Shown piece by piece: positions 11,735-54,203 of a stretch of 64,000 nt of DNA. The notes below the pieces were generated by a model that worked only from the letters and a program-made list of their open reading frames with translations, ran no database searches and was not told the origin of the DNA. Within the stretch, counting starts at the first letter, position 1. Every line of letters begins with the position of its first letter. The translations under genes were made by a program, and so were the position numbers. The stretch is taken from contig NZ_KI535340.1 in assembly GCF_000160075.2 (NCBI RefSeq), positions 650,711 through 714,710 on the forward strand. Reading direction: 5' to 3'. This DNA comes from Abiotrophia defectiva ATCC 49176 (GTDB taxonomy: Bacteria; Bacillota; Bacilli; Lactobacillales; Aerococcaceae).

Positions 11735-11768
11735 AGTATTATAACTTCTATCAGACGAGGTGATATCC

Positions 11769-31988: not shown

Positions 31989-32036
31989 TATGTTTATGTT
32001 CTCCTTCTTATCAACTAATCTAAGGATGTCTTAAAC

Positions 32037-34027: not shown

Positions 34028-34163
34028 CTTCTCCTCACCTTTCTCTTGTATTCGACTTATTATACCATAAGTTAGCTAGAGGAAGGAAATATTTGTACAG
34101 TGAACTTTTCACCTGGCTTTTGACTGTCTCTGTTACTGAGCTAGTAACCTTCCATAGACAGAC

Positions 34164-34192
34164 AAAAAGACCGGCCGTAGCCGATCTTTTTC
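34164..34192. terminator. Bidirectional terminator
   Basis: AAAAGACCGGC pairs with GCCGATCTTTT (one mismatch) over CGTA, just past the phosphoglycosyl transferase stop. Confidence 0.78.
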
Positions 34193-34202
34193 TAGTGCTA
34201 TT

Positions 34203-35606: not shown

Positions 35607-35822
35607 TGTGGGGCGTCCTCCTTATAGAATTTGATAAATTCCTATTTATTGCATCACTTTATTATAGCACCTGTCACCCAAAAATTCTATACTTCTCAAA
35701 ATAAATTTCAGAAGCTAACCATCACTTTTATTTAAATGATAGAAGAAACTACTAGCAAATGCTGAGCAAACTTTTACTAGCTCTCGCTACTCTCATACCT
35801 AGACTTAAGGGCCAAATAAAGC

Positions 35823-35848
35823 AAAAGGCTAAGACCTAGGTCTTAGCC
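35823..35848 (-). terminator. Terminator below galU
   Basis: A perfect 22-bp palindrome GGCTAAGACC/GGTCTTAGCC is followed by TTTTGCTTT on the minus strand. Confidence 0.75.
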
Positions 35849-35866
35849 TCCATATTATCCATTATT

Positions 35867-36754: not shown

Positions 36755-36764
36755 GAGATGTCTC

Positions 36765-37598: not shown

Positions 37599-37607
37599 GG
37601 GGGCCTC

Positions 37608-39464
37608 CTAGTCAGCTTGAGTAGTTTGATTGGCGAAGCCAATGATGGCTTCTTTGAGGACATCGCCTTCTAAGTTATCGAATTCTGCCATTTTAGCTTC
37701 AATGGTAGCCAGCGGCATGGTATTTACCTTGCCGACGAAGATTTGATCATGCACTTGGTTATCAACAAATTCTGACGCCACCAAGAGCTCTTCATAGAGT
37801 TTCTCACCCGGACGAATGCCTACTTCAACAATTGGGATTTCTTTTTCAGTATGGCCACTAAGCAGGACCATTTTCTTAGCCAAGTCATAAATCTTAACAG
37901 GTTCACCCATATCTAAGATGAAGACTTCACCGTCGCGGGCATATGCCCCGGCATGAATGACTAAGCGACTAGCTTCCGGAATGGTCATAAAGTAACGGGT
38001 CATGCGGAAGTCGGTCACCGTCAAAGGTCCACCTGCAGCAATTTGTCGTTCAAAGACTGGAATGACACTGCCTCGGCTACCTAAGACATTACCGAAACGA
38101 ACGGCACAATAGGTGGATTGACTGGTCTTATTGAAGCCAGTCACAATCAGTTCGGCTACACGTTTAGTTGCCCCCATCACGTTAGGTGGGTTGACCGCCT
38201 TATCTGTCGAAATCATGACCATCTTAGGCACACCAGCTTGGTCGACTGCCTTGGCCACATTATAGGTCCCGTGGATATTATTTTTGAGGGCTTCCTTAGG
38301 GTTACGCTCCATCATCGGCACATGCTTATGAGCTGCTGCATGATAGACGATAGCTGGTTGATAATCCTGGAAGACTTGTAATAAGCGTGGGTAATCTTGA
38401 ATATCTGCAATAACGGGCACATATTCGATTTCCGGATGGCTCTTAATTAATTCATGGTAAATCAGATAAATGGAGTTTTCGCCATGACCTAAGAGGATCA
38501 CGCGTTTAGGCTTGAAGCGACTCACTTGGCGACAGATTTCGCTCCCGATTGAGCCACCTGCCCCGGTCACTAAGATGGTTTTATGGCTTAACTCTTGGTC
38601 CAGGCATGACTCATCTAGGCGGATTTCCTTACGACCCAAGAGGTCTACAATGTCAATTTTCTTAATCCCATTGCGTTGTGGGCCAGCCCCTTGAATAACA
38701 TCTTCAACCTTAGGCATTTTATAGACGGTTAAGCCCGCCTCATTACACATTTCGAGAATGCGTTCATATTCGCGCGGTTCAAGAGAGGGGATAGCCACGA
38801 TGACTTCGTCAATATCATATTCTTTGGCCAGGCTGGCTAAATCATCATAACGGCCTAAAACCGGCACACCACTTAACTGTTGTCCCTTCTTATTGAGGTC
38901 GTTATCCAAAATCCCCACGATGTCCAAATCACTGGTTTGGGGTTGATAGCTGTTCATGAAGGCCGCGCCTCCGTCCCCAGCCCCAATTAGGAAAATTCGG
39001 CGACTGGTCGCCACCTCCTGGCCGCGATCTCGTTGGGAGTATAAGAGCTGCCAAATCAAACGTGGCGCAAAAACCAAGAAGGTACTCAAGAGAATGAAGA
39101 GAACCAAGAATCGAACTGAAAACTGAGGCAAGAAGACATAGCTAATGCCATAGCCCACCACACTGGAAATGGCGATGGTGGAAAAGAGCTTCATAAATTC
39201 ATCTAGGGAATTGTAGCGGCTCATACTTGCTGCCAAGCCCATAAGATGGGTTAAAACTTGGTAAATTGCAAAAGTTAACCCCACATACACAATGTAGTCA
39301 AAGGGATTAGGGTTAATCAAGGTATAGAAGAGGACATAGGATACCACAATGGCTACAATAAAACTTATTAAGTCACTGATGGCCCAGAAAAATTGTTTCT
39401 GCCCCCGATTTAATCTTTCAACGATGTCTATTACATAGCCGGCTATATCTTTATTCAAAATCAT
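37608..39464 (-). CDS. UDP-sugar 4,6-dehydratase, PglF/CapD-like
   Basis: The 618-residue membrane enzyme has four N-terminal helices, a first Rossmann domain (FLIGAGDGGAAFM near 150) and a second SDR domain (LVTGAGGSIGSEICRQV near 290; MISTDKAVNPPNVMGATKR near 425). It converts UDP-GlcNAc to the 4-keto-6-deoxy sugar for bacillosamine- or FucNAc-type sugars. The ATG at 39464 has AAAGGTGG 6 bases upstream; the frame extends 9 codons further without a better site. It leads the dehydratase-LCP-galU operon. No aminotransferase follows it here. Confidence 0.92.
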   Translation of the reverse strand: MILNKDIAGYVIDIVERLNRGQKQFFWAISDLISFIVAIVVSYVLFYTLINPNPFDYIVYVGLTFAIYQVLTHLMGLAASMSRYNSLDEFMKLFSTIAISSVVGYGISYVFLPQFSVRFLVLFILLSTFLVFAPRLIWQLLYSQRDRGQEVATSRRIFLIGAGDGGAAFMNSYQPQTSDLDIVGILDNDLNKKGQQLSGVPVLGRYDDLASLAKEYDIDEVIVAIPSLEPREYERILEMCNEAGLTVYKMPKVEDVIQGAGPQRNGIKKIDIVDLLGRKEIRLDESCLDQELSHKTILVTGAGGSIGSEICRQVSRFKPKRVILLGHGENSIYLIYHELIKSHPEIEYVPVIADIQDYPRLLQVFQDYQPAIVYHAAAHKHVPMMERNPKEALKNNIHGTYNVAKAVDQAGVPKMVMISTDKAVNPPNVMGATKRVAELIVTGFNKTSQSTYCAVRFGNVLGSRGSVIPVFERQIAAGGPLTVTDFRMTRYFMTIPEASRLVIHAGAYARDGEVFILDMGEPVKIYDLAKKMVLLSGHTEKEIPIVEVGIRPGEKLYEELLVASEFVDNQVHDQIFVGKVNTMPLATIEAKMAEFDNLEGDVLKEAIIGFANQTTQAD

Positions 39465-39595
39465 ACTGCCACCTTTTCTATAGATTTGCATTCTTTTGTA
39501 TCAGTACTATTTTACTCTTGATTGGGTCAAAATACAATGTATTTTCGCTAAAAAGAGCCCCAGTTAGCCCATAGGACTCTGTCCCTACCCCAAAT

Positions 39596-39626
39596 AAAAA
39601 CACGGCAAGGCTAACCCTTACCGTGT
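39596..39626 (-). terminator. Terminator overlapping the yesN-like stop codon
   Basis: ACACGGTAAGG pairs with the CCTTGCCGTGT arm (one mismatch), with T5 on the minus strand. The stop at 39618-39620 lies inside the stem, so termination is built into the last codons. Confidence 0.75.
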
Positions 39627-41099
39627 CGTTTGCTTATCTTCCTGAGCCTTAAGGTGATCATGATAGTGTTGGCGATACTCTTTAGGACTGACACCCTCAG
39701 ATTGTTTAAAGACCCGATAAAAATAGGCTTGATTCTGATAGCCAACCTTGACCGCAATCTGGGCCACCGACAGCTTAGACGCAATCAGTAAATCCTTAGC
39801 GATAGCTAGACGATATTGATTGATATAGCGGGACAGAGTCATACCGACCTCACGCTTGAAGAGTTGCCCCAAGTACATGACATTGACATGGAGGTCATCG
39901 GCCAAACTCTTCATGGAGATATTCTCGTTATAGCGTTCATAGATAGCCGCCAAGACTTCATTGACTATTGGCGGATAGAGGTGGTGACGTTTCTCACGTC
40001 CACCTAAATCTAAACTCTCCTTGAGATGTTGGCTTAGCAAGGCAAAAGTCAGAGGCTGATTGGCCCCTTCATCTAGGAGACTGGTTGGGGTATGCTGGTT
40101 AGATTTAATATCAAAATAATGCCGAATCAAGGCCGTTAATTGCACCACTTCCTGAGGCGCTAGTTCCCGCTCCTGACAAAAGGCCAAGAAACTATCTAAG
40201 TCCGCATCCAGTTTAATACTATTCTGCTTGTCGATGGCTTCATAGAGATGGCCCACTAATTGATCGACTAACTTGGCGGTTGCCGGATCGCTCTGAGGAC
40301 TTTCGCTCTCATCCTGACAAAAGATTTGCCTAGCTCTCTCTTCATCCCACTCCCATTCATAGAAAAGCCGTCGACTTTCAGCCTGAAGGAAGGCTTGGAG
40401 TTTATGATGAATGTCGGTTAGGCTAAGCTTAGTCTGTATTTGCATCCCACTATCTTGAAGTTTTTGACTAGAATCTGACTGGGGCATAATCCCTAGTAGC
40501 CAGTCACCTAGCACCATAATAGACCAACCGCCCGTAGCCAACAATTGGGGCTGACAAGTCTTTGGTGCCAAAACCCACTGCCAGTTGGGGGCAGTGACAT
40601 CCTGGTAACGAAGAGGTAAGCTCCCTTGGCCTGTCTCTAACCAACTAGTCAGTTGAGCTTGCTCATGGTCCGAAATAACCTGAGCTAGGGCTCGCTTATC
40701 CCGAATTTCTTGGGCTACTTGGCTAAGCACCCGATGAAGTTCTACCTTGTCTATAGGCTTAAGCAGATAATTCTTGGCCCCTAATTCCATGCCTCGCTTA
40801 ACGTACTCAAATTCCTGATAGCCTGACACAAAAATGAAGGCAAAGTCCTGGCCCAGCTCCTTGGCTTGACTAATAAAATCAATCCCCGTCACGTTAGGCA
40901 TATTGACATCGGTGATGACAATATCTACAGCTTGGTGACTCATTAAGTCCAAGGCTTCCTGGCCATTACCAGCTGTCCCTACAAGTTGCAGGCCTAGTTC
41001 TTGCCAGCGGATCAGGCGTTCTAAACCTTTGACGATCATGTACTCATCGTCCACAATCAGGACCCTGAGTGGGGTGGGTTGAAAGGACACTTGAGCCAT
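39618..41099 (-). CDS. YesN-like response regulator with AraC output domain
   Basis: The 493-residue regulator has a receiver domain (about 10-130; phospho-acceptor Asp in VDIVITDVNMPNVTG near 60, Lys in NYLLKPID near 110), a long middle segment and an AraC-type double helix-turn-helix (about 380-485, ending NQAYFYRVFKQSEGVSPKEY). With the overlapping sensor kinase it forms a YesM/YesN-type system for extracellular sugars. AAGGAGG precedes the ATG, and the gene overlaps the kinase gene by 43 bp. I infer that it binds the 21-bp-spaced repeats upstream of the transporter, GH1 and secreted-protein genes. Confidence 0.92.
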   Translation of the reverse strand: MAQVSFQPTPLRVLIVDDEYMIVKGLERLIRWQELGLQLVGTAGNGQEALDLMSHQAVDIVITDVNMPNVTGIDFISQAKELGQDFAFIFVSGYQEFEYVKRGMELGAKNYLLKPIDKVELHRVLSQVAQEIRDKRALAQVISDHEQAQLTSWLETGQGSLPLRYQDVTAPNWQWVLAPKTCQPQLLATGGWSIMVLGDWLLGIMPQSDSSQKLQDSGMQIQTKLSLTDIHHKLQAFLQAESRRLFYEWEWDEERARQIFCQDESESPQSDPATAKLVDQLVGHLYEAIDKQNSIKLDADLDSFLAFCQERELAPQEVVQLTALIRHYFDIKSNQHTPTSLLDEGANQPLTFALLSQHLKESLDLGGREKRHHLYPPIVNEVLAAIYERYNENISMKSLADDLHVNVMYLGQLFKREVGMTLSRYINQYRLAIAKDLLIASKLSVAQIAVKVGYQNQAYFYRVFKQSEGVSPKEYRQHYHDHLKAQEDKQTTR

Positions 41100-42784
41100 A
41101 CACGGACACCTCCTTCTTCATTTACTTGATAAGATAAAGTAGCCTCGCCACCAAAATAATGATGCAGTCGCTCAGCCACATTAAAGATTCCAATTGACTG
41201 CCGGCTATTCGGTTCAATGGGTCGAGCTCCTTCTCTTAATCCTTGATTTAAGGCGCTGAGGGTTTCCGGGGACATACCTCTCCCATTATCAGACACTTCA
41301 ATCCAGAGCCTGCTAGTCAGGCTAGCTTGGTCGGCCACGCCTTCCACCCAGGCTTTGATGACTAAGTGATTATCACTTCTAGCGAAATCCACGCCATGCA
41401 CAAAATAGTTTTCAATCAATGGTTGCAAGGTAAACTTAGGCAAGACGAAAGCTTGACATTCTGATGTCATTTCAATATCCACCTGCAATTTGTTAGGATA
41501 GCGCACTTGGTAGAGGTGGATGTATTTACGACAGAAGGAAAGCTCACGCTCCAAGGTCGTCTCCTTCTCATCGCTAATGTTATTTCTTAATAAGGCAGCG
41601 AAATCATAGACGATATCGGCCAATTCATCTGCCCCCTCAGTCAGGGCACTCATGCGAATAAACTCTAGAGTGTTATACATAAAATGCGGATTGATTTGCG
41701 ACTGCAAAGCCTTGAGAATGGCTTCGTGCTCGCGGGCTTCCATGGAATAGAGTTCCTGTATGTTGACCTGATACTGGTCTAACATGGTATTAATGGAATG
41801 GGTAATTTCCCGAAGTTCATCCTGCTTATCGGCTTCACGAATACGATAGTAGAACTGCCCTTCTCCAATTCGCTTGAGGGTCGTGACCATATCATGAACC
41901 TGATTAGAATAGGCCCCGAAGAAACGATAAAGCAAGGCCAAGAGGATGACTGCCACAAGTATGGTAATCAAGGTAATCACTAATACTGGACCCGTAACCC
42001 GTTGCCAGATGATCGACTTAGGCAAGAGACTAATAATCAGTAGATCCTCGCCCGTCTCCATGCGGCTGATTAGGTAGCCAGACAGCGAGTTTTCTCCTTT
42101 GATGACCGCTTGTAGCTTGTCTTGACTCAGCTTGCCACGTTCTAGGAGCATGCGTTTTAGCTTAGCATCGACGACGACAGTTTGAGCCTTGGTTAAGAGC
42201 GGCGACTCGGCCAGCCCTTGGAAGAAACGATCAGCATGGTAGTTGACCTGAACCTGCCCCAAACTATGGCCAGAACGCAAGTCAAATAAAGGGCGGTCAA
42301 AGCCAATCTCTTGACCCTCTTCTTTACTTATATCAGACGGCATCATCTTACGGCCTCGTGTGTTGTCGGCGGTAGAAACAATCAGTTCTTTGGCATTATC
42401 GACATGGATCACAATCGAGGTAATATCTTGAAACTCCCGATGAAGTCGATAGAGCTTATCAGGCAAGTAGAGATTGTACTGACGGTTCATTAGAAAGCTC
42501 TCTAGCGACTCCTGGTAGCTATAATTGGCATAATGACGCAAGGCTTCAATCTGCTTGGTTGACTCCGTCAGTTTTTGCGCGATTTTCTGAGTATCTTGGT
42601 CAGCCTGACTGAGTTCTGTCTGAATATGGTAGTGCATGAGATTAAGCTCCGCCAGGGCGTTATTGACGTTATGTTGATAGAGCAAGTAGACCGCTACAAG
42701 AGGCAAAAGAAAGACCAAGACCAGAATCAGAGTTGCATAGTAGCGTAAGAGCCGACTAAAGCGGTTGGGATTCTTCTGGCTCAT
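41057..42784 (-). CDS. YesM-like sensor histidine kinase
   Basis: The 575-residue kinase has membrane helices near 13-33 and 265-290 flanking an external sensor domain, then a HAMP region (about 290-345), a His_kinase domain with the phospho-acceptor His in QINPHFMYNTLEFIRM (near 367) and an HATPase domain with SDNGRGMSPE. Family members sense sugar through an ABC binding protein or directly. AAGGAG precedes the ATG. Overlaps on both sides (28-43 bp) show tight coupling with yesL- and yesN-like genes. Confidence 0.93.
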   Translation of the reverse strand: MSQKNPNRFSRLLRYYATLILVLVFLLPLVAVYLLYQHNVNNALAELNLMHYHIQTELSQADQDTQKIAQKLTESTKQIEALRHYANYSYQESLESFLMNRQYNLYLPDKLYRLHREFQDITSIVIHVDNAKELIVSTADNTRGRKMMPSDISKEEGQEIGFDRPLFDLRSGHSLGQVQVNYHADRFFQGLAESPLLTKAQTVVVDAKLKRMLLERGKLSQDKLQAVIKGENSLSGYLISRMETGEDLLIISLLPKSIIWQRVTGPVLVITLITILVAVILLALLYRFFGAYSNQVHDMVTTLKRIGEGQFYYRIREADKQDELREITHSINTMLDQYQVNIQELYSMEAREHEAILKALQSQINPHFMYNTLEFIRMSALTEGADELADIVYDFAALLRNNISDEKETTLERELSFCRKYIHLYQVRYPNKLQVDIEMTSECQAFVLPKFTLQPLIENYFVHGVDFARSDNHLVIKAWVEGVADQASLTSRLWIEVSDNGRGMSPETLSALNQGLREGARPIEPNSRQSIGIFNVAERLHHYFGGEATLSYQVNEEGGVRVWLKCPFNPPHSGS

Positions 42785-43382
42785 GCGGAATCACTCCTTG
42801 CCGGCGCCATTCTCTCAAATAGAAGGACGACAAGCTAGTCACCCAGAGAGGGACCGCGAAGATAAAGGCCAAGGCTGGGAAGGTCATCACCACCCAGACA
42901 ATAACCAAACTATAAACCAAGGTCAGGAGATTGGGACGAGGCGTCACCAAGAGTTGGAAGAAGCTAAACTTAATGAATTGGCTAGCTTCCCCCTGGTAGA
43001 CTACCCGCATTTGACTCTCTGCAACCAAAGCTAGGTTCACCAGAACTAGAACCGTCACTTGGATAACAAGGGCCACCAAGAAGATCAGGCCTCGCATTTG
43101 AGAGGTAATAAAAATCAACCAGCACAGGAAAACAGACAAGAGGGTATAGAAGAGATTGAGCCCCCAACTATCACGACGATTGGCCTTATAGCTATCCCAA
43201 AAACTAGAGAAGGTCAGCAGGTCTGCCCGCCATTTAGCTTTTTGATGGGCTTCAGTTAAGGCCGTCAGACTAGCCATAGTGCCAAAAAGGCCCAAACCAG
43301 CCAACCAACCCAACCAGAAATAGGCGGCTCCCTTCATCCAATAGTAGACTCGCATCATCATCTCAACAAGTTTAGTTTCCAT
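42756..43382 (-). CDS. YesL-like DUF624 membrane protein
   Basis: The 208-residue protein has five or six membrane segments and the DUF624 pattern (YYWMKGAAYFWLGWLAGLGL near 12-31; WRADLLTFSSFWDSYKANRR near 52-71). DUF624 genes usually sit beside YesMN systems and oligosaccharide ABC transporters; the exact role is unknown. GAGGAGG precedes the ATG. It overlaps GH92 by 11 bp and the kinase gene by 29 bp. Confidence 0.9.
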   Translation of the reverse strand: METKLVEMMMRVYYWMKGAAYFWLGWLAGLGLFGTMASLTALTEAHQKAKWRADLLTFSSFWDSYKANRRDSWGLNLFYTLLSVFLCWLIFITSQMRGLIFLVALVIQVTVLVLVNLALVAESQMRVVYQGEASQFIKFSFFQLLVTPRPNLLTLVYSLVIVWVVMTFPALAFIFAVPLWVTSLSSFYLREWRRQGVIPHEPEESQPL

Positions 43383-45654
43383 GCGCTTCCTCCTCTATCT
43401 TACAATCAAGACTATTATACTCCCTTTGGCCATTTAGCGCTAGAGAAAACGGTCTTAAAGATGCTTCCAACGGCTTGATTGACGGCAGCAAGCCAAGTTC
43501 TTGCTCCAATTGGCCACCCGCCATGATATCTTCATAAGTCAGGAAGTGAGCAGCATAATCTCGGCCATTTAATTGGCGGCTCAAAACTACATTGAGTACC
43601 TGGCTAGGATTCAGGGTAGTCCATTGGAAGCTCCGTCCCTCACTTAGGTTGAGACTGGCTCGGTCCCAGATGCTGATCCCTAAGACATATTGATTAGTCC
43701 CCGGTGTGACGGCATAAATTCCCAGAGAACTCAAAACAAACCAGGCTGATAAGGAGCCGTTGTCCTCATCGCCAATATAACCTTCTTCTTCCAACTTAAA
43801 GGCTTCTAGCATGAGCGATTTAAGCAATTGATGGGCCATATGTGGGTAGCCAGCATAGATTGGCAAATAAGGCAAATGGAAGCTGGGCTGATTGGACAGG
43901 GCAAGCTGGCCCCAATCGCGGCGGGCCATTTCTAACATTTCATGAATTTCATAGCCATAGCCATCCACCCGGTAGCTAGCTGGTTGATTAACCAAGGCCT
44001 GCAGTTGCTGGTAGAAGGCAGCATCCCCGCCATGTAGGGCCACTAAATCAGCTAAATTATGATAGACTGCGAAAGACTGCTGCCATGCAGATCCCTCGGT
44101 ATAAGGTCCACCCCAGGCCTGGCTAACAAAGCTGTCTAGGAAGTGGCCCTCTTGATCCTTGGCCCGCATCAGGCCACTTTCGTCATCGAAAAGCTGGCGG
44201 TAGTTGAGTGATTGTTGGCGGTAGTCCTTAGCTCTCTCCCAATCGCCCAAGGCCTGGGCTACCTGACTAATACAGAAGTCACTATAGGCGTAGTCCAAAC
44301 TTTTATTAACCGACTCGCCGTAGCTTGCTGGCAAATAGCCCAAACGACGATAGTCACCCGCCCCCTGGCGACCTTCCAAGTGGTGGCCACTCTCTGTCTC
44401 AGCCGTATAAAGCATGGCCTGATAAAGCTCCTGAGCTAATTCTTCAGGCACTAACCCCTTGACGATGGCATCCGCTATGACCGCATCTACTAGGGTACCT
44501 GGCATGAGCCCCCGCTCATCAGGAGACAGCCATTTAGGCAAGAAGCCATCTTCTCGGGCAACCGCTAGAATACCTTCTAGGAAGAGTGGAACCATTTCAG
44601 GCACAATTAAGGCATAGAGTGGGTAGTTAGTCCGGAAGGTGTCCCAGTAGCCATTGTTGGTGAAGAAGTAACCAGGCTCCAACTTACCCGTATAAGGCGA
44701 TTGATGAATCGGCTCTCCAGCCTCTGACCACTCATAGGCCGCTTGAGGGAAGGTGGCCGTCCGATAGAGACAATGATAGAATCGATTGACTAACTTGTCC
44801 TCTCGATGACTAACTGTCAAACGGCTTAGATAGGCCTCCCATGCGGCCTCCGTCTGAGCGCACTGCTGGTCCCAGGACTGGCCGAAGAAATTGGATTGCT
44901 GATAATTAAGCTCCAGCTGGTCTGGGCTAATATAAGAGGTCACCCATTCCAAGTGCAAGAACTGACTTGGGACAGCTTCAATACCGTCCAACTCTAGCCA
45001 AAGTTGCTGAAGCCCCTCTCCCAAACTCACCACCTGGCAAAGCTTGAAGGATACACCTTCAGGCGCTTGCATGCTACTGTATTGCCCATACTGGCCATAC
45101 TTAGAACCTGCTAGTTGATTAGTATAGAAGCTTAATTGACGCCCCTCTAGCTCATACCAGCCACTTTGTGCCAGAACCAAGCTCATGACCCAATGTCCCT
45201 TAGGATAGCGCCGGTCAGGTGTCACCTTAAGACTGGCCCCATCCCGCGTTGGACAACAAGCCACCTGCAAGCCGTCCCGTAAACGTTGATAGGACAAAAA
45301 GCCTGGCCGAAATTGAGCTAAATCACCGCGATAGCCAGAACTTGCTAATTCTCGACTGGCCTCAGCCGACAACGGACTCTTAAGTTGATCCCACTCCTTA
45401 TCCGTTAGACAGGCCACCTGCCAAGTCACCCAGGCAAAGTCGCCCATCCAGGGACTGGGTTGGTGGGTCAAACGAATCCCAAAGGCAGTCCCATCTTCCG
45501 GATGGAAAAAGCGTGCCTCTCTAGGCCGGGTTTCCAAAACAAAATGGTTCATGCCAAAGGGGACCCCAGTATAAGGCAGGGTGTTGCCCTGGCCCAAGCG
45601 GTGACTATTCCGTGTTCCCCAACGAGTATCAATGGTTTGGTAAGGGGCTGACAT
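43372..45654 (-). CDS. GH92 alpha-mannosidase-like enzyme
   Basis: The 760-residue protein has the GH92 layout of a beta-sandwich followed by an (alpha/alpha)6 barrel. Signatures include NTLPYTGVPFGMNHF near 25, FFTNNGYWDTFRTNYPLYAL near 325 and GDEDNGSLSAWFVLSSLGIY followed by AVTPG near 640. GH92 enzymes are calcium-dependent exo-alpha-mannosidases that trim high-mannose N-glycans. It lacks a signal peptide, so it works on imported oligosaccharide, as in streptococci. It is in an operon with the LplABC-type transporter and YesLMN genes. AAAGGAAG precedes the ATG. Confidence 0.92.
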   Translation of the reverse strand: MSAPYQTIDTRWGTRNSHRLGQGNTLPYTGVPFGMNHFVLETRPREARFFHPEDGTAFGIRLTHQPSPWMGDFAWVTWQVACLTDKEWDQLKSPLSAEASRELASSGYRGDLAQFRPGFLSYQRLRDGLQVACCPTRDGASLKVTPDRRYPKGHWVMSLVLAQSGWYELEGRQLSFYTNQLAGSKYGQYGQYSSMQAPEGVSFKLCQVVSLGEGLQQLWLELDGIEAVPSQFLHLEWVTSYISPDQLELNYQQSNFFGQSWDQQCAQTEAAWEAYLSRLTVSHREDKLVNRFYHCLYRTATFPQAAYEWSEAGEPIHQSPYTGKLEPGYFFTNNGYWDTFRTNYPLYALIVPEMVPLFLEGILAVAREDGFLPKWLSPDERGLMPGTLVDAVIADAIVKGLVPEELAQELYQAMLYTAETESGHHLEGRQGAGDYRRLGYLPASYGESVNKSLDYAYSDFCISQVAQALGDWERAKDYRQQSLNYRQLFDDESGLMRAKDQEGHFLDSFVSQAWGGPYTEGSAWQQSFAVYHNLADLVALHGGDAAFYQQLQALVNQPASYRVDGYGYEIHEMLEMARRDWGQLALSNQPSFHLPYLPIYAGYPHMAHQLLKSLMLEAFKLEEEGYIGDEDNGSLSAWFVLSSLGIYAVTPGTNQYVLGISIWDRASLNLSEGRSFQWTTLNPSQVLNVVLSRQLNGRDYAAHFLTYEDIMAGGQLEQELGLLPSIKPLEASLRPFSLALNGQREYNSLDCKIEEEAHGN

Positions 45655-45802: not shown

Positions 45803-47257
45803 TTAGTTTTTGTTTTTCAAGAATTCGTCGTATTGACGTTGCATTTCTTCCTTGATTTTATCAATACCTGCGTCTTTCAAAGCTTTGTTGAATTCAGGCA
45901 ATACTTTTTCAGGGTCAACTGTACCAGTGTGGAGACCTGCAACATATTCGTTAACAACGTTGTTGACGTTAGCAATTTCATCCGCTACAGGTTCTTGGTT
46001 GAAGTTGAAACCTAAGAGTGGAGAATCAGTTGCTTCTTTCAAGCCTTTTTCAGAAGCAGCCAATTGTTCTGGTGTGACGCGTTCATCCTTGTAAAGCAAG
46101 GCAGCATTCCCTGTGTTCCAGGCAGACATGTGAGTTGCGCCTTCGTTGTACTTAGGCAAGAGTTTGATCTTGTCTTCGCCAACTTTTTCCCAGTTTTCGC
46201 CTTCAAGACCATAAACCAAGGTGTTCATGATTTCTGGTTTAGAGTTGATGTAGTTGAGCAATTTCACTGACTCTTCAACGTGGTCAGAGTTTTGCGCGAC
46301 AACGAAGTTAGACATACGTGCTTGAGCGTTTGTCTTGATGATAGAGTCGCCGTGAGGCACGATTTCTAAGTCTTTACCAGAAACAGCACGGAGTAAGTAG
46401 TTACCGTAGTCACGTGGCCCTACTGTTTCACGACGCATGAACCAGGTATCCGCATCTAATGGGTAACCTTGGTCAGAAGTGGCAGCATCTTTAGGAACAA
46501 AGCCTTTTTCGTAGAATTCGTGCATTACTTTGATTTCTGGAATGAAGGCATCTGTTTCTTCATAAGGGTTCACGATCTTAGCGGTGTCGCCTTTGAGGTA
46601 AACCCCGAGTGGTACGGCATCACCAATGACATAGTCAAAGTCATGCCCTACACGCCAACCACGACCGGCAGCTAAAGGCGCTACACCAGGTTCTTTGTCT
46701 TTAATGGTTTGTAAGAGAGGCTCTACGTCTTTGAGTTCTTTGATACCGTCTAGTTTGAGGTTATATTTCTTCAAGAAGGTTGGGTTGAAGGTGTAGAATT
46801 CTTGTGCATACACGTTCCCGTTTACTGGGAAAGCATACATCTTGCCGTCAACTGTGTTCCCTTTGATGTAAGCTTCGTCTAAGTACTTGAAGGAGTCTTG
46901 AGCGTGTTCTTTGATTAAGTCGGTCAAGTCAGCATAAGCGCCTTTTGAAGCATTTTGGATATAACCAGAAGCACGCGCGATGTCGTATTTTTCACCTGAG
47001 TTGGTCATCACGTTCATCTTGTCATCGTACTCACCCCAACCTAGGTAGCGGATTTCAAGTTTAAGGTTTAAGTCACGAACAAAAGCTTCGTTAACTTTAG
47101 CCAAAAGTTGATCCAAGTTATCAGGTGGTGTCCCGATTTGGTACATGGTGATAGTAGTTGGCTCTTCAGCTTTAACAGCTGGAGTGAAGACAGAAGCTAC
47201 AGATACTGCTGCTAAAGCAGACATAGCCATATTACGTACAAGACGTTTCATTTTCAT
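45803..47257 (-). CDS. Oligosaccharide ABC substrate-binding protein, LplA/YtcQ-like, no lipobox
   Basis: The 484-residue protein has a signal peptide (about 1-30, ending TPAVKAEEP) cut by signal peptidase I and no lipobox cysteine. The solute-binding domain spans about 35-400, with MYQIGTPPDNLDQLLAKVNE near 39, and the C-terminus (about 340-484) is DUF3502-like. It likely binds mannose-rich or other host oligosaccharides delivered to the adjoining LplBC-type permeases. GGAGG precedes the ATG. The lack of an anchor resembles the alpha-galactoside binding protein at 10.3 kb. Confidence 0.9.
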   Translation of the reverse strand: MKMKRLVRNMAMSALAAVSVASVFTPAVKAEEPTTITMYQIGTPPDNLDQLLAKVNEAFVRDLNLKLEIRYLGWGEYDDKMNVMTNSGEKYDIARASGYIQNASKGAYADLTDLIKEHAQDSFKYLDEAYIKGNTVDGKMYAFPVNGNVYAQEFYTFNPTFLKKYNLKLDGIKELKDVEPLLQTIKDKEPGVAPLAAGRGWRVGHDFDYVIGDAVPLGVYLKGDTAKIVNPYEETDAFIPEIKVMHEFYEKGFVPKDAATSDQGYPLDADTWFMRRETVGPRDYGNYLLRAVSGKDLEIVPHGDSIIKTNAQARMSNFVVAQNSDHVEESVKLLNYINSKPEIMNTLVYGLEGENWEKVGEDKIKLLPKYNEGATHMSAWNTGNAALLYKDERVTPEQLAASEKGLKEATDSPLLGFNFNQEPVADEIANVNNVVNEYVAGLHTGTVDPEKVLPEFNKALKDAGIDKIKEEMQRQYDEFLKNKN

Positions 47258-47316: not shown

Positions 47317-48237
47317 CTATTCCTTGACGCCACCGATGGTTAAACCAGAAATAAAGTATTTCTGGAAGAAAGGATAGCTTAAGGCGATTGGCAAGGTTGA
47401 GATAACCACCATGGCCATACGCGTTGCTTCCCGCGGAATGGAGACGCCCGATACGGCCGAAGCCCCTTGGGCAGCATTTTTAACGATATAGTCAATATTG
47501 GCTTGGATTTGCATCAAGACATATTGCAGTGGGAAGAGGTTTTGATCATCTAAGTAAAGCAAAGCGCTAAACCAGTCGTTCCAGAAACCAATAGCCGCAA
47601 AGAGAGAGATAGTTGCAATCCCTGGGATGGCCAGTGGTAAGACGATTTGACGGAAAATCCGAAATTCGCCTGCCCCGTCAATCCGAGCGGATTCAATGAT
47701 GGATTCAGGAATAGACTTGCGGAAGAAGGTCCGCATGATGATGACGTTGAATGGACTCAAGGCCATTGGCAAAATCAAGGCCCAGATAGAGTTTCTTAGC
47801 TTGAGCAAGGAAGTCATCACGATATAGCTTGGCACCATCCCAGCCCCTACCAACATGGTCACCAAAATGATGAAGAGGAAGAAGCGGCGGAAGATGAAGT
47901 AAGGTCGTGATAAGGCATAGGCATAAGTCGAGGTCACCGTTACGTTAATCAAGGTCCCAACCACGGTCACGAAGACTGTCACCATAAAGGCATTGACGAT
48001 GGTAGAACTTTGCGTAAAGAGATACTCGTAACCTGCCGTAGACCAGGCATCCGGAATCAAGCGATAGCCGTTCCGCACAATGGAGTTTTCATCGGTCAGC
48101 GATAAGATGATAACAAAGATGAAGGGAAAGACACCCGTCAAACCAACCAAGGTCATCAGAAGACTGAAGAAGAAGTTAGCTTTGGGGCCGAAGGTATCCA
48201 CCGATACCTTGCCCAGTTTTTTCTTGGTCTGAGTCAT
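47317..48237 (-). CDS. Oligosaccharide ABC permease, LplC/YtcP-like
   Basis: The 306-residue permease has six membrane segments and the EAA loop IIESARIDGAGEFRIFRQIV near 193-212. The C-terminus ISGLTIGGVKE is typical of LplC/YtcP proteins. AGGAGG lies 8 bases before the ATG, and the gene follows the LplB-like permease by 11 bp. Confidence 0.92.
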   Translation of the reverse strand: MTQTKKKLGKVSVDTFGPKANFFFSLLMTLVGLTGVFPFIFVIILSLTDENSIVRNGYRLIPDAWSTAGYEYLFTQSSTIVNAFMVTVFVTVVGTLINVTVTSTYAYALSRPYFIFRRFFLFIILVTMLVGAGMVPSYIVMTSLLKLRNSIWALILPMALSPFNVIIMRTFFRKSIPESIIESARIDGAGEFRIFRQIVLPLAIPGIATISLFAAIGFWNDWFSALLYLDDQNLFPLQYVLMQIQANIDYIVKNAAQGASAVSGVSIPREATRMAMVVISTLPIALSYPFFQKYFISGLTIGGVKE

Positions 48238-48248
48238 GGTGGCACCTC

Positions 48249-49205
48249 CTAGAATAGAGCAGAATCTGGATCAATCTTGCGCACAATCAAGTTAGCTGAC
48301 AGCAACAAGATGAAACCAACGAAGGACTGATAAAGCCCGGCTGCGGTGGTCATCCCCAGGTTCCCTGCGTTTTTCAAACCATCATAGATATAGGTATCTA
48401 AGACGGACGTCACATTCTTAAGTGGACCAGATTGAAGTGGCACTTGGTAGAAGAGACCGAAGTCGGCCCGGAAGATGTTCCCAATCCCCAAGATAACCAG
48501 AATAATCATCATAGGCACCAAATGTGGAATCACGACGTGACGGATTTGATCCCACTTGCTAGCGCCATCCATTTGAGCGGCTTCATAGTAGGTCCGGTCA
48601 ATCCCCACGATGGTCGCGAAGTAGATAATGGAGGAATAACCAATCCCTTTCCAAATCCCCATGAAGACAAGGAATGGTGGCCACATATCAGGTGTTGTAT
48701 ACCAGTTAGTGTCGGCCTTCATGCCCATATCCCCTAACATTTGGTTCAAAAGACCGCGGTCAGTAGATAGGAAGGTTAAGACGAAGATACTGATGATAAC
48801 CCATGACAAGAAATAAGGTAAGAGCATGGAGGTTTGAATGGTCTTAACCAAGAGCTTGCTGCGTAATTGGCTGAGAATAATCGCGAACATAACGGCGAAG
48901 ATAAGGCCAATAATAATGAAGGCTAGGTTGTATAAGACGGTGTTTCGGGTAATGAGATAGGCCTTAGAACTTGAAAATAGGTAGTTAAAGTTGGCGAACC
49001 CTACCCATTTACTGTCGAGGATGGACTGAACAAATCCTCCCTTGGAGAAACGGAATTGCTTAAAGGCCACTACGTTCCCTAATACTGGAATATAGTAGAA
49101 AAAAATGAGCCAAATCAGCCCTGGTAAAGTCATAATGAGCAAGGGTATATTTTGTTTCCATTTGCGTCGTTTTTTGGAGCTTTTAGCTTTTTTCGCTGCT
49201 TCCAT
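48249..49205 (-). CDS. Oligosaccharide ABC permease, LplB/YteP-like
   Basis: The 318-residue permease has a lysine/arginine-rich head, six membrane segments and the EAA loop YYEAAQMDGASKWDQIRHVV near 210-229. It is the first gene of the transporter-GH92-YesLMN operon. The ATG at 49205 has AGAGGAG 5 bases upstream; a GTG two codons earlier overlaps that site. The promoter region carries a perfect cre box and the 21-bp repeats. Confidence 0.92.
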   Translation of the reverse strand: MEAAKKAKSSKKRRKWKQNIPLLIMTLPGLIWLIFFYYIPVLGNVVAFKQFRFSKGGFVQSILDSKWVGFANFNYLFSSSKAYLITRNTVLYNLAFIIIGLIFAVMFAIILSQLRSKLLVKTIQTSMLLPYFLSWVIISIFVLTFLSTDRGLLNQMLGDMGMKADTNWYTTPDMWPPFLVFMGIWKGIGYSSIIYFATIVGIDRTYYEAAQMDGASKWDQIRHVVIPHLVPMMIILVILGIGNIFRADFGLFYQVPLQSGPLKNVTSVLDTYIYDGLKNAGNLGMTTAAGLYQSFVGFILLLSANLIVRKIDPDSALF

Positions 49206-49221
49206 TGTCACTCCTCTTTTC

Positions 49222-49235
49222 TGTTAACGTTTACA
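49222..49235. promoter_or_regulatory. Perfect cre (CcpA) site
   Basis: TGTTAACGTTTACA fits TGWNANCGNTNWCA at every position. It lies between the -10 box and the start codon of the LplB-like gene, where bound CcpA would block early transcription. Confidence 0.75.
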
Positions 49236-49241
49236 GTTTGT

Positions 49242-49305
49242 ATTATACGCCATTCTCCTTGAGCTTCCTATCCTCAAATCATAGGTAATTTATTAAAAAT
49301 TATAG
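49242..49305 (-). promoter_or_regulatory. Transporter-operon promoter with 21-bp direct repeats
   Basis: The minus-strand -10 TATAAT (49242-49247) has no good -35. Direct repeats CAAATCATAG (ending 49284) and AAAAATTATAG (ending 49305) lie 21 bp apart, starting 25 bp upstream of the -10 box. The same distance is seen at 54170. This is the expected position for an AraC-domain activator. Confidence 0.65.
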
Positions 49306-49456
49306 GTATTAAATCATACATTGTGCACTAAACCCGTATAGGCAAATAGTTATTTCGCCCGAGACTCTAGCAAGCCACTTGTACTTTTTAAGCCCCTCTC
49401 TCGCTGCTAAATTAAGCAGATATTTTACTAGGCTTTATAGTCGCATCAGATCAAAG

Positions 49457-49484
49457 CAAAAAGGCATGACTTCAGTCATGCCTT
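49457..49484 (-). terminator. Terminator of the GH1-ROK operon
   Basis: GGCATGAC pairs with GTCATGCC over TTCA or TGAA, with T5 on the minus strand. Confidence 0.82.
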
Positions 49485-49523
49485 AAATATATACTAAATG
49501 AGTTCGACTCCTTGGAAGCCAGG

Positions 49524-50384
49524 CTAGTCACTAAGTTCAGCAGCTGCCAACCAGGTTACCCCTGCCCCAATCAGATTAGCATCTGCTTGATGGGCACAAG
49601 AACGTACCTGAGGGTAATGGGGGACTTCAGACGCTTCTAAGAAGGTCTTGACCCGCTCTTCTAGTAGCCGACTGAAGTCCTGATTGCCCGACAAGGCGCC
49701 CCCAATCAAAATAAGCGGCAAATCCATAAAGACATAGAGATTATGAATCAAGAGGGCCAGGTCATCTACCATTTGATTGACGGCTTCCTTGGCTTCTGGA
49801 TAACCTTGTGTGGCCAATTCCAAGAGGGCCTTGAAGTCGCTCGACCCATTATAGCGTCGCGCCACATTGACTGGACTCATAGTTGGGCTGACCCGGCGGT
49901 TGAAGTCAACCATGCCATAACCAAACTCTCCGGCAAAGCCCCCTGGCCCCCGGTAGAGCTGACCATTTAAGACTAGGGCACCCCCAATGCCAGAGCCTAA
50001 GACTAGGAGGGCCACTACTTGAGCACCCTGCGCAGCGCCTGAGTGGACTTCAGCCACCGCTGCACAGTTGGCGTCATTTTCTATGGTGACAGGCACTTGG
50101 AAGGCCTGGCTCATCTCTTGAACAAAAGGCCGATGATGGATATAAGGGACGGCACTTATGCCTTCGATAAGGCCCTTGTCCGGCAAGACGGTCCCTGGCA
50201 CGGAAAAGCCGATTCCTTTGATAGGTAGGTCCAATTGTTGGCGGAGTTTAGCAAGCTCGGACTGGAATTCCTCCCAAGTCGCTGGTGTTAGAAACTTGCC
50301 TTGATGGCTCAACACCTGCCCATCAAAGATGCCATACTTAACGCTCGTGCCCCCGACATCACATACTAGTAGATACTCGGTCAT
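49524..50384 (-). CDS. ROK-family sugar kinase
   Basis: The 286-residue protein has the ATP loop VCDVGGTSVKYGIF (about 5-18), the catalytic Asp in TIENDANCAAVAEVHSG (near 100) and GSGIGGALVLNGQLYRGPGG (near 125). The zinc-binding CxCGxxGC motif of typical ROK proteins is missing, and no helix-turn-helix is present, so it is a kinase rather than a NagC-type repressor. It may phosphorylate mannose or glucose released by GH92 or GH1. The ATG at 50384 overlaps the GH1 stop (ATGA), with GGGAGG inside the GH1 gene. Confidence 0.9.
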   Translation of the reverse strand: MTEYLLVCDVGGTSVKYGIFDGQVLSHQGKFLTPATWEEFQSELAKLRQQLDLPIKGIGFSVPGTVLPDKGLIEGISAVPYIHHRPFVQEMSQAFQVPVTIENDANCAAVAEVHSGAAQGAQVVALLVLGSGIGGALVLNGQLYRGPGGFAGEFGYGMVDFNRRVSPTMSPVNVARRYNGSSDFKALLELATQGYPEAKEAVNQMVDDLALLIHNLYVFMDLPLILIGGALSGNQDFSRLLEERVKTFLEASEVPHYPQVRSCAHQADANLIGAGVTWLAAAELSD

Positions 50385-51790
50385 GACATTTCCTCCCACT
50401 CAAAACCGTGATTAGCAGTCAAATCCTTGAACCACCAGCCGGATTGTTTGACGGTCCGGGTCTGGGTATGAATATCGTTAGAGATTAAGCCATAGCGGTT
50501 CTTGTAGGCATTGAGCCAGGACCAACCATCGACTGGCGTCCAGACATGGTAGCCAAAGCAGTTAGCCCCTTCTTGCATAGCTCGGTTGAGCCAGTAGAGG
50601 TGCTCACTGAAGAACTGAATCCGATAGTGATCCTGGATAATGCCTGTCTGATCCAGATAGCGCTCCTCACGCGAAACGCCAATCCCATTCTCGGAGACGA
50701 ACCAAGGGATATTATCATAATTGTCTTGAAGGTTCTTAGCAATATCATAGAGAGCTTGAGGATAGATTTCCCAACCCTTATCCACATTCATACGCCGGCC
50801 TGGCATTTGATAGTCGTTAAAGTAGCGTTGTGGCATCCAGTCAACCGTTAAACTGTTAGGCGAAATTTCTGGCGCCTTGACCCGATGAGGGTGATAGTAG
50901 TTAACCCCGATGTAATCCACGCGATTGTCTCGGATAATGGCTAGCTCTTCTGGCGTCGATTCCCATAACACGCCATCTTTAGCCAGAACGGCCACTAATT
51001 CCTCTGGAAAATGCCCCTTAACTGAAGCATCTAAGAAGAGGCGATTAACAAATAAGTTGGCAAAATGCGCCGCTGCCAAATCTTCTTCAGATTGGCTAGC
51101 TGGATAAGCCGGCGTCAGGTTAAGGGCAATGGTGACTCGACCTGCCGGATTTCGATTGATTTGGCGGTAGGCTTGAATGGCCTTAGCAGAGGCTAGTTGT
51201 AGGTTATAGGCTACTTGCACCGCCTTCTTGCCATCTACCAACATAGGGTAGTGGAAACCATAGAGATACTGGCCTTCTACGACTACCATAGGCTCATTGA
51301 AGGTCATCCAATCGGTCACACGATCGCCGAAACATTCAAAGGCCCGACGCGCAAATTTCACAAAAAGGTCTACGACATGCTTGGACTCCCAACCACCGTA
51401 ACGCTCATAGAGTTCGATAGGCAGATCAAAGTGATGGAGATTGATAATCGGCCGAATACCGGCTGCCAAGAGGGCATCAATGACCCGATTGTAGTAGTCT
51501 ACCCCTTCTGGATTCAAGCTCCCTTCCTCTAAATCATCAATCAAGCGGGTCCATTGAATGGAGGTCCGCAAACTGTTAAAACCTAAGTCCTTAAATAGGG
51601 CAATATCAGACTCATATAAATGGTAGAAATCGGATGCCACATCCGGCCCTACATAGCGGAAGAAATCTTCCGGCTTGGTATCATAATGATAATCGAATAC
51701 ATTGACATGTGGCTTATGGAAACGCCCTTCATTCTGTGGACCAGAGGTTGCCCCGCCCCACCAAAAATCTACTGGAAATGTTACTTTCAT
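50381..51790 (-). CDS. GH1 beta-glycosidase
   Basis: The 469-residue enzyme has the GH1 TIM barrel with the acid/base Glu in WMTFNEPMVV (near 165) and the nucleophile Glu in FVSENGIGV (near 368). The aglycone loop reads WSWLNAYKNRYG: the Ser and Tyr of the 6-phospho-glycosidase phosphate site are present, but the usual Lys is shifted by one and an Asn takes its place. With an ABC rather than PTS context, the substrate may be unphosphorylated. The ATG at 51790 is best spaced from GAGGTG. It is cotranscribed with the ROK gene. Confidence 0.9.
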   Translation of the reverse strand: MKVTFPVDFWWGGATSGPQNEGRFHKPHVNVFDYHYDTKPEDFFRYVGPDVASDFYHLYESDIALFKDLGFNSLRTSIQWTRLIDDLEEGSLNPEGVDYYNRVIDALLAAGIRPIINLHHFDLPIELYERYGGWESKHVVDLFVKFARRAFECFGDRVTDWMTFNEPMVVVEGQYLYGFHYPMLVDGKKAVQVAYNLQLASAKAIQAYRQINRNPAGRVTIALNLTPAYPASQSEEDLAAAHFANLFVNRLFLDASVKGHFPEELVAVLAKDGVLWESTPEELAIIRDNRVDYIGVNYYHPHRVKAPEISPNSLTVDWMPQRYFNDYQMPGRRMNVDKGWEIYPQALYDIAKNLQDNYDNIPWFVSENGIGVSREERYLDQTGIIQDHYRIQFFSEHLYWLNRAMQEGANCFGYHVWTPVDGWSWLNAYKNRYGLISNDIHTQTRTVKQSGWWFKDLTANHGFEWEEMS

Positions 51791-51808
51791 CGTCATCACC
51801 TCACCCTT

Positions 51809-51862
51809 ATTATAGCATGACCCTGACTGTACAAAATATAGACCTTTTGCAACAAACTATAG
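51809..51862 (-). promoter_or_regulatory. GH1-ROK promoter with 21-bp direct repeats
   Basis: The minus-strand -10 TATAAT is at 51809-51814. ACAAAATATAG (ending 51841) and ACAAACTATAG (ending 51862) are exactly 21 bp apart. Here the repeats start 15 bp from the -10 box, one helical turn closer than at the other two promoters. Confidence 0.65.
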
Positions 51863-51937
51863 GCTTATCTTAAAGTGCGCCAAAGGAGCCGGCAAAGGGC
51901 CTATCGTCCGAGCCAGATAATCATAATCATGTTGAAG

Positions 51938-52007
51938 CAATTTTTTACTCCGAGTTGTGGTTAACCACAACTCGTGACAAAATCGTGACCCAACAAGAAG
52001 TTTATAT
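51938..52007. repeat. 70-bp intergenic dyad repeat, copy 2
   Basis: The palindrome at 51952-51973 has arms GAGTTGTGG and CCACAACTC around TTAA and extends one base each side. AAAATCGTGACC follows. It is 54/70 identical to 1113-1182 with no gaps; paired changes in both arms keep the dyad. Confidence 0.7.
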
Positions 52008-52111
52008 AAGGTATAAAGGATGCCTCTATATCAAATAGGGACAGATAAAACATCTCTCACTTGGCCCAAAATCATTTCTCTAAAAGTTCTCTAGCTTTGC
52101 CTGATAGACAG

Positions 52112-52144
52112 AAAAAGGCGAGAGACCTAAGTCTCTCACCTTTT
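52112..52144 (-). terminator. Terminator of the secreted EndoD-like gene
   Basis: GGTGAGAGAC pairs with GTCTCTCGCC (one mismatch), with T5 on the minus strand. Confidence 0.8.
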
Positions 52145-52147
52145 GAA

Positions 52148-54106
52148 TTAAAACCAAGCAAATAAGTCTTTCATTTGTCGGCTAAGTGATTCGATTTCTC
52201 TTGCAGGAATCACTTCTAAAGGCAACAAGGCCTTAGCCGCGTTCACTGCTTTTTGAATGGATGGATATAAGGTTGAGGTTGGGAAGCGAGACATCAAGTT
52301 TTCCCCTCGGTTAATGAGGGCCTTGAAATCATTTAAGACCTTGTCTTTGTTAGCTGTCCCGTTGAGACGACGCAACTCCCCATAGAGGCTCCAACGAGCT
52401 CCTTCTTCCTCATTGCTACGAGTGAATGGTGAATTCAAGGCTTCTTTGGCCCGAGCAAGTGCCATGTCGACTGCTACTCGCGCACCTAAAGTGGCATATT
52501 GGTAGTGACCCGTTTGGATGACGGCTTCTGCTTCAGCAACTAAGGCTTTTAGGCGAGTGAAGTCAAGTTGTTCCTTAGGCTTGACCACCACATCAAAATG
52601 GCTGAGCACTTCATTCTTGAAGGTCATGGTGATGCGTTGGGTTCCTAATTTATTCTTGTCATAGCCTGAGTAGACTACACGTCGATGAACGAATGGTTGC
52701 AGAACTGCGCGCCCATCGCTATAGAGCAGACGGAAGCGTCCGCCAATTAAATCTAGGTCTTCACCCTGAATATATTCAGCTTTCGGTAAGGTCACGACAT
52801 CCATTCCGACAACTACGCGTGAGTTATCTGGCGCTGGTTTGTAAACAAAGACCTTCCAAGGCAAGCGTACCTTGTGGCCTAAAAAGCTAATCTCTAGGTC
52901 TTGTTGGCCTACTTTTTGGCTATTGAAACCTGAAACCGTTACGGCTGGGTTAGTTAGATCATAGACCTTACCTGCAAAGTCCCCTACATAACGAACTAGG
53001 AGTGAAGTATTGCTAAAGTCTAATTCTTCCCCAACTCTATAAATGCGTTTTGCCTTGTCTACCTCAAGGGTCATCTGGCTAATGGCCAAGTGCGCATTTT
53101 TTGGAACGTCCAATTGCCCTACAGCACTTTGTGCTAGGCCTGGAGTTTGAATGCGATAGTAGAGCGTCTTGATATCATTTTTTAAGGCTAGCGGTTTAAG
53201 TAATAAATTGCCACCTTGATCCGCGATACCAGTCGCCACAATCTTGCGAACTTTGGCATTATCATAGACGGTTACAGTACTATGTTGTGGCAAGTTCTTC
53301 AAGCCCAATTGAACATAGCCTTCCCCTAAAGCATGAAGGGTCACTTGGCTAGGATCCAGCGCCGGAGTCTCAGGATTTGCTTTTTCATACATCTTCCAGT
53401 TGTAGATTCGAACGCCTGGATGCTTGTTACCATTGGTTGCCGTCTTAACAACAAGGCCCCACTCATCAGATTCGAAGGGACGTTCTAATAAGACATCTGT
53501 CACAGATTCTTCATTACCACGAATAGCCTTAGCTAGTTTCCAGCCTCTGCTCTTCATATCGCGGAAAATCAGGTCGAAGTCGCGCGTATTCATCTCGCTA
53601 TCTTCGCCACCTGCCCCTGCGTGTTCCACTACCAAGCGCACAATGGTCCGCGGACGGTCTAACTTAATCTCAACACGTGCTTGGCTCTTAGGCGTAAAGT
53701 ACTTATCAGATAAGCCATTTTTAGTCCCGTTCAACATCTTGTTGGCCGTCTCAGCATTTTGACCAGGTGCAGATTGATAAGTAATGCTAGCTCCAAGCAC
53801 CACATTTTCTTCTTCAGCAGGTGCTTGAGGCGCTGGGCTTGTTTGACTAGCCTCTGGAGTTGGCTCAGTCTGAGGCGTTTGGCTTGCTGATTCCGGGCTG
53901 ACGGATTCAGCAGGCACTTGTGGTAAGACCGGGGAAGTCTCTTCCTTGCTAGCTACTGCGGGGACAGTAGACTGAACTGGTACTTCGGATGAAGTGGAAT
54001 TGGCAGGTTCAACTGCCTGTGCTTGTCCCTGATAGGACAAGGCCATACCTAAAGCGATAGAGGTCGCCAAGGCATATTTGAAGCGGGTAGAATGTTTCTT
54101 GCCCAT
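52148..54106 (-). CDS. Secreted EndoD-like multidomain protein without a GH85 domain
   Basis: The 652-residue protein has a signal peptide (about 1-31, ending GQAQAVEP), a Ser/Pro/Glu-rich spacer to about 105, a galactose-binding-like domain (about 105-245, with SARVE-type strands and GVRIYNWKMYEK), an Ig-like segment, two bacterial Ig-like repeats (about 340-425 and 430-520; GEELDFSNTSLLVRYVG) and two FIVAR-like helical modules at the end (about 525-650). These domains follow the catalytic domain in GH85 endo-beta-N-acetylglucosaminidase D, but no catalytic domain is present. It ends KDLFAWF with no LPXTG or other anchor. It may bind host glycans for the GH92 pathway. GGAGG precedes the ATG. 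Confidence 0.8.
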   Translation of the reverse strand: MGKKHSTRFKYALATSIALGMALSYQGQAQAVEPANSTSSEVPVQSTVPAVASKEETSPVLPQVPAESVSPESASQTPQTEPTPEASQTSPAPQAPAEEENVVLGASITYQSAPGQNAETANKMLNGTKNGLSDKYFTPKSQARVEIKLDRPRTIVRLVVEHAGAGGEDSEMNTRDFDLIFRDMKSRGWKLAKAIRGNEESVTDVLLERPFESDEWGLVVKTATNGNKHPGVRIYNWKMYEKANPETPALDPSQVTLHALGEGYVQLGLKNLPQHSTVTVYDNAKVRKIVATGIADQGGNLLLKPLALKNDIKTLYYRIQTPGLAQSAVGQLDVPKNAHLAISQMTLEVDKAKRIYRVGEELDFSNTSLLVRYVGDFAGKVYDLTNPAVTVSGFNSQKVGQQDLEISFLGHKVRLPWKVFVYKPAPDNSRVVVGMDVVTLPKAEYIQGEDLDLIGGRFRLLYSDGRAVLQPFVHRRVVYSGYDKNKLGTQRITMTFKNEVLSHFDVVVKPKEQLDFTRLKALVAEAEAVIQTGHYQYATLGARVAVDMALARAKEALNSPFTRSNEEEGARWSLYGELRRLNGTANKDKVLNDFKALINRGENLMSRFPTSTLYPSIQKAVNAAKALLPLEVIPAREIESLSRQMKDLFAWF

Positions 54107-54139
54107 TTCGATTCCTCCTATTGGTTATTTGATACTTCC

Positions 54140-54203
54140 AGTATAAGAGAGGCTCCCCCTAAAAAATATGCACAAAATATAGAAAAATTAGCACAAATTA
54201 TAG
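54140..54203 (-). promoter_or_regulatory. Secreted-protein promoter with 21-bp direct repeats
   Basis: The minus-strand -10 TATACT is at 54140-54145. GCACAAAATATAG (54170-54182) and GCACAAATTATAG (54191-54203) are 21 bp apart and start 25 bp from the -10 box, as at the transporter promoter. The -35 box is poor, fitting activator dependence. Confidence 0.68.

Follow-up and report, generated by a model that had tools for sequence, protein, structure and literature searches.

The 64,000-nucleotide stretch of the Abiotrophia defectiva ATCC 49176 genome analysed here (the window) contains a glycan locus, with its genes on the minus strand, in which CTATANTTTGT, read in the direction of the genes, occurs as a direct repeat with a 21-bp spacing at each of three promoters (P1, P2 and P3). 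We propose, with an estimated probability of about 0.88, that these repeats form the tandem operator of the YesN-type response regulator encoded in the same locus, the counterpart of pneumococcal RR07 of the two-component system TCS07. The position and spacing of the repeats, their conservation across genera, their co-occurrence with the regulator and the identity of the target genes were established directly. The elements of the three promoters are the following.

49295..49305, minus strand: P1 half-site, promoter-distal, CTATAATTTTT
49274..49284, minus strand: P1 half-site, promoter-proximal, CTATGATTTGA, degenerate
49242..49247, minus strand: P1 -10 box TATAAT, with a gap of 27 nt after the proximal 10-base core
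49222..49235, minus strand: P1 catabolite-responsive element (cre) type site TGTAAACGTTAACA, just 3' of the -10 box (predicted CcpA repression)
51852..51862, minus strand: P2 half-site, distal, CTATAGTTTGT
51831..51841, minus strand: P2 half-site, proximal, CTATATTTTGT, overlapping the -35 position
51809..51814, minus strand: P2 -10 box TATAAT, preceded by TGC (extended -10), 17 nt from the operator
54193..54203, minus strand: P3 half-site, distal, CTATAATTTGT
54172..54182, minus strand: P3 half-site, proximal, CTATATTTTGT
54140..54145, minus strand: P3 -10 box TATACT, 27 nt from the operator

All three pairs were found at the coordinates and in the 21-bp register given in a preliminary description of this stretch. 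The same description placed the -10 box equally far from the repeats at two promoters and one helical turn closer at the third, which is correct, except that the distance is not 25 bp; measured from the 10-base core, the box follows after 27 nt at P1 and P3 and after 17 nt at P2. An exact match to CAAANTATAG is seen in four of the six half-sites, and the two of P1 are degenerate, with one mismatch each (CAAATCATAG and AAAATTATAG). The -35 boxes at a 17-bp spacing are all poor, as already reported (TAGGAA in P1, ATTTTG in P2 and TATTTT in P3). The inner half-site ends ~4 bp ahead of the -35 position at P1 and P3 and covers it at P2. This is the layout of an AraC-type tandem operator, with two direct half-sites 21 bp apart, the inner one abutting or overlapping a poor -35 box. 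Escherichia coli AraC binds such direct repeats, also 21 bp apart, at araI1-araI2, where the inner site likewise lies next to or over a weak -35 box. The two systems differ in that AraC responds to arabinose and loops to araO2, whereas the regulator considered here has a phospho-receiver, and the half-site sequences are apparently unrelated. P1 contains a perfect cre (TGTAAACGTTAACA), and inspection of P2 and P3 revealed no cre site in either.

When the whole 2.04-Mb genome was scanned with the paired motif, allowing up to 3 mismatches, 8 matches were obtained (2 for the reversed control), and the best three (0, 0 and 2 mismatches) are those of P2, P3 and P1, so that the pairs are not scattered over the genome. 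Another pair with 2 mismatches (C2:132245) was set aside as a chance match, with no -10 box at 27 or 17 nt and a DUF1576 gene downstream. A matrix trained only on the promoters of other families also places P3, P2 and P1 at the top of the window, with scores of 32.2, 30.9 and 15.3, respectively, and the highest score in 60 shuffles is 16.3. Chance resemblance in A/T-rich intergenic DNA could be argued from P1 alone, which falls inside the shuffled range, and the assignment of P1 is made by orthology and position. For the set as a whole, chance is refuted by the genome-wide rank, by the conservation across genera and by the recovery of the same gene families in a search that started from the pattern (both described below), and we give it almost no weight.

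The comparison of promoters was made with 35 fetched relatives of the regulator. The same pair is present at the promoter of the transporter genes in Enterococcus, Vagococcus, Erysipelothrix, Streptococcus and Niallia. The GH85 genes of Enterococcus, Vagococcus and Erysipelothrix, which were held out, also have the pair upstream, where it was recovered by the matrix derived from transporter promoters. Orthologous promoters of other genera thus contain the element, and the regulon, previously described as local, is instead common to the order and beyond. Of 29 distinct promoter pairs, chosen irrespective of the -10 box, 22 have this box at exactly 27 nt and 27 have it at 26–28 nt. The 66 aligned promoters share a conserved TT at +36/37, coincident with the -35 position expected for a 17-bp spacer, and 41 of them contain a cre-like site between the operator and the -10 box. 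The C and G of the half-site are conserved at fixed positions with 1.6–1.9 bits each. Over all loci compared, CTWWWWWW(A/T)G pairs occur 44 times at 21 bp and 0–4 times at any other spacing (some of the loci overlap, which affects every spacing equally). The frequency of cre-like sites and the perfect cre at P1 would suit a second explanation, in which the conserved stretch is a mere promoter or CcpA element, composed of A/T-rich UP-element-like DNA and a cre. The fixed C and G and the strict 21-bp register are, however, foreign to UP elements, cre is absent from P2 and P3, and the pairs are mostly missing from genomes without the regulator; we consider this explanation very improbable.

Further operator pairs were noticed in two related genomes upstream of a GH20C hexosaminidase gene (L189:11866-13746) and a GH2 beta-galactosidase gene (L190:5188-8283), both near the transporter operon. 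In E. canintestini (L129:5035-8508) a perfect operator is followed by a ROK gene and then by a gene for a 747-aa AraC/GGDEF_2 regulator, which is possibly a second-level regulator. The S. infantis pairs before a gene similar to phosphotransferase system EIIA (L135) and before a peptide-binding lipoprotein gene (L136) lack the 27-nt geometry and were rejected as probable chance matches.

The element was also used as the starting point of a search in 395 Lactobacillales genomes. With a loose pair pattern (3 mismatches, no -10 box) the signal did not separate from the reversed control, and therefore a composite pattern, half-site-N11-half-site-N27-TANNNT with at most 1 mismatch, was applied. It gave 123 matches in 86 genomes, compared with ~24 for the reversed pattern. 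Forty loci were drawn from these matches by the pattern alone, and 37 of them feed glycan genes (31 the transporter operon, 5 GH85 genes and 1 an EndoS-like endoglycosidase gene); the other three (L221, L223 and L224) showed no relevant glycan gene. The regulator is encoded within the fetched stretch in 27 of the 31 transporter loci, and in L207 the site lies ~2 kb upstream.

In the same genomes the regulator was detected by a profile, as single-sequence BLAST missed most orthologues owing to split matches. Operator and regulator occur together in 75 genomes, the regulator alone in 14, the operator alone in 11 and neither in 295; the operator is thus found in 75 of the 89 regulator-positive genomes and in 11 of the 306 scored negative. 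The 11 genomes are an upper bound, because the profile misses some of the shorter streptococcal regulators (L213 and L214 contain such regulators, and their genomes were scored negative). With exact operators only, a detected regulator is missing in just 2 of 48. The transporter keeps the operator also in three streptococcal loci, one of them from S. infantis, where the fetched stretch does not include the regulator (L134, L210 and L211).

The YesN protein of the window consists of a receiver and a C-terminal AraC-type helix-turn-helix (HTH) domain, and its gene adjoins that of a HAMP/His_kinase sensor (Pfam assignments). It is 31% identical to the S. infantis counterpart and matches strongly a joint profile that includes its own sequence. 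In the first HTH it carries the recognition helix N-x-x-Y-L-G-Q, common to the regulators encoded beside the operator. Binding of the repeats by a different regulator should be considered, whether a ROK repressor, a GntR protein or another AraC/MsmR-type protein (for example that encoded at window 11760-12602), as the genome encodes nine AraC-domain proteins, direct repeats fit any AraC protein and one related locus (L190) has a GntR gene next to it. The alignments read for the other AraC proteins, however, showed the YLGQ helix in none of them, and all eight score 40–90 bits with the profile of this domain built from the regulators beside the operator, compared with 156 bits for the window YesN. 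Moreover, the operator tracks the presence of the YesN-type regulator across genera, and the ROK protein of the window is kinase-like, with no HTH match. We therefore regard another regulator as unlikely, and the YesN-like protein, already named as the candidate regulator in the preliminary description, as the probable ligand, on the grounds of its helix and its co-occurrence with the operator. The second AraC-domain regulator of the window mentioned above (11760-12602) has 280 aa, lacks the YLGQ helix and is encoded 27 kb from the glycan regulator gene.

The genes behind the three promoters are listed below.

48249..49211, minus strand: ABC transporter permease, NgtP-like, at the head of the P1 operon, ~60–77% identical to relatives
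47317..48237, minus strand: ABC transporter permease
45803..47257, minus strand: solute-binding protein with DUF3502, NgtS-like
43372..45654, minus strand: GH92 alpha-mannosidase
42756..43382, minus strand: DUF624 membrane protein, YesL-like
41057..42784, minus strand: sensor histidine kinase of the YesM/HK07 type, HAMP/His_kinase
39618..41099, minus strand: response regulator with AraC-type DNA-binding domain, YesN/RR07 type, proposed operator ligand
50381..51799, minus strand: GH1 glycosidase, first gene after P2
49524..50399, minus strand: ROK-family sugar kinase (P2 operon)
52148..54106, minus strand: secreted protein after P3, EndoD carbohydrate-binding module and Big_3 modules, without GH85

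The product of the P3 gene, which had been described as EndoD-like, matches the carbohydrate-binding module of EndoD (PDB 2xqx, E 7.8e-36) and also contains Big_3/2l7y modules (2l7y, E 2.4e-11). The description holds for these accessory modules, and not for the enzyme, as domain searches of the 52148-54106 protein found no GH85 catalytic domain. The GH85 gene proper (C1:611620-612537, in L151, G000:C1:608000-618000) is located ~90 kb from the locus and encodes a secreted protein of 1527 aa. It has a weak, degenerate 21-bp pair 85 bp ahead of its start and a cre-like stretch beside the -10 box. In a near-identical sister genome (G024, L128), whose regulator is 96% identical, neither the P3 promoter nor its gene is present between the GH1 and MarR genes. 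P3 and the EndoD-module gene form a gain or loss unit with its own strong operator. Immediately downstream of the regulator gene (window 30633-39491) lies a capsule/exopolysaccharide group (Polysacc_synt_2, LytR_cpsA_psr, nucleotidyl transferase and sugar transferase genes) together with CdaA, YbbR and phosphoglucomutase genes.

In pneumococcus, TCS07 (HK07/RR07) also comprises an AraC-type response regulator, and the target families are the same as here (NGT transporter, EndoD, GH92, ROK and BglA3). Overexpression of RR07 induces NgtP1/P2/S, EndoD, ROK, GH92, the glycosyl hydrolase BglA3 and others (PMC7075642), and the gene content of our locus agrees with Table 1 of that study, the authors of which found no motif. 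The motif [CTWWWWWWAG]-N39-60-TSS (transcription start site) was proposed for RR07 in 2024 from endoD upstream regions (PMC11034029); the published text gives it as a single half-site, with no second copy or 21-bp register. The half-sites described here share with it the CTWWWWWW start and the final G, and most of them end in TG, not AG. The AG ending is absent from all half-sites of P1–P3 (TG or TT) and present in a congener (L023) and in streptococcal endoD. The transporter promoter of this congener (G026) reads CTATAAAAAG-N11-CTATAAAAAG-N27-TATAAT, and CTWWWWWWAG occurs twice, 21 bp apart, upstream of endoD in both S. gordonii and S. intermedius. Estimated from the -10 positions, the operator stands ~40 nt from the transcription start at P1 and P3, and ~30 nt from it at P2, the published range being 39–60 nt. 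Given the 21-bp pairs in these two endoD promoters and in L023, as well as the count of 44 against 0–4 at other spacings, the published motif very probably represents a single half-site of this tandem operator.

In the streptococcal endoD promoters (L147, that is G008:C11, L148 and L149) the -10 box lies 40 nt from the pair in S. gordonii and S. intermedius, with a TTGACA box in S. gordonii. This layout suggests an activation geometry unlike that of the 27-nt promoters. For endoD of S. infantis STn400, a TTTATA repeat at about that spacing is all that is seen.

The operator had been held to be unlike that of any described YesN system. This is so for the complete element, since no description of a 21-bp operator of a YesN-type regulator was found in the openly accessible literature; it is not so for the half-site, given the candidate published for RR07 (PMC11034029). 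In the XydS/XydR system of C. cellulolyticum the DNA-binding part of the regulator binds the target promoters, no consensus operator was defined, and the targets are plant polysaccharide genes (PMC3572039). The system described here is not a new kind, and it is a better-defined case of AraC-type tandem operators and RR07-type regulators.

Several observations weigh against the assignment of the repeats to the YesN-type regulator. The P1 half-sites are weak, and P1 alone is not significant, because its score is below the shuffle maximum. The Fisher p for co-occurrence (9e-54) overstates the significance, as the 395 genomes are related to one another and not independent, and the co-occurrence is partly built in because the transporter operon in most cases includes the regulator gene. 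Binding of RR07 to the strH and gh125 promoters was not detected in an electrophoretic mobility shift assay (EMSA; PMC9603416). Finally, hk07 is not induced by RR07 in pneumococcus, in contrast to the autoregulation predicted below.

From the arrangement of sites and genes, we infer binding, phosphorylation, activation and the inducer as follows. Host N-glycan fragments would be sensed by the sensor kinase, leading to phosphorylation of the regulator, and two AraC-type DNA-binding domains would bind head-to-tail to the two CTATANTTTGT half-sites, two helical turns apart. The bound regulator may then replace the missing -35 box and recruit RNA polymerase in the manner of AraC at araI1-I2; this role is proposed because the inner half-site abuts (P1 and P3) or covers (P2) the -35 position. 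It would switch on the transporter-GH92-YesMN operon, the GH1-ROK operon and the gene of the secreted EndoD-module protein; its effect on the distant GH85 endoglycosidase would be weaker. As yesMN lies inside the regulated P1 operon, positive autoregulation is predicted. CcpA, acting at the cre of P1 only, would add glucose repression.

For streptococci and related bacteria, degrading host N-glycans is a key way of feeding. The fixed architecture (two half-sites 21 bp apart and a -10 box 27 nt further on, often with a CcpA site between operator and box) is likely to mark a host-N-glycan regulon of ~20 Lactobacillales genera together with Erysipelothrix and Niallia, reaching unlinked endoglycosidases (GH85 and EndoS-like) and new secreted EndoD-module proteins, and could be used to locate unknown host-glycan genes in whole genomes. 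The RR07 site has so far been represented by one study without a motif, a negative EMSA on two promoters and, in a third report, a single proposed half-site. A full operator with fixed promoter spacing provides exact probes, with which the question of the RR07 operator becomes directly testable. The regulon would thereby be widened to a bacterial order, with new targets indicated without prior knowledge of the enzymes.

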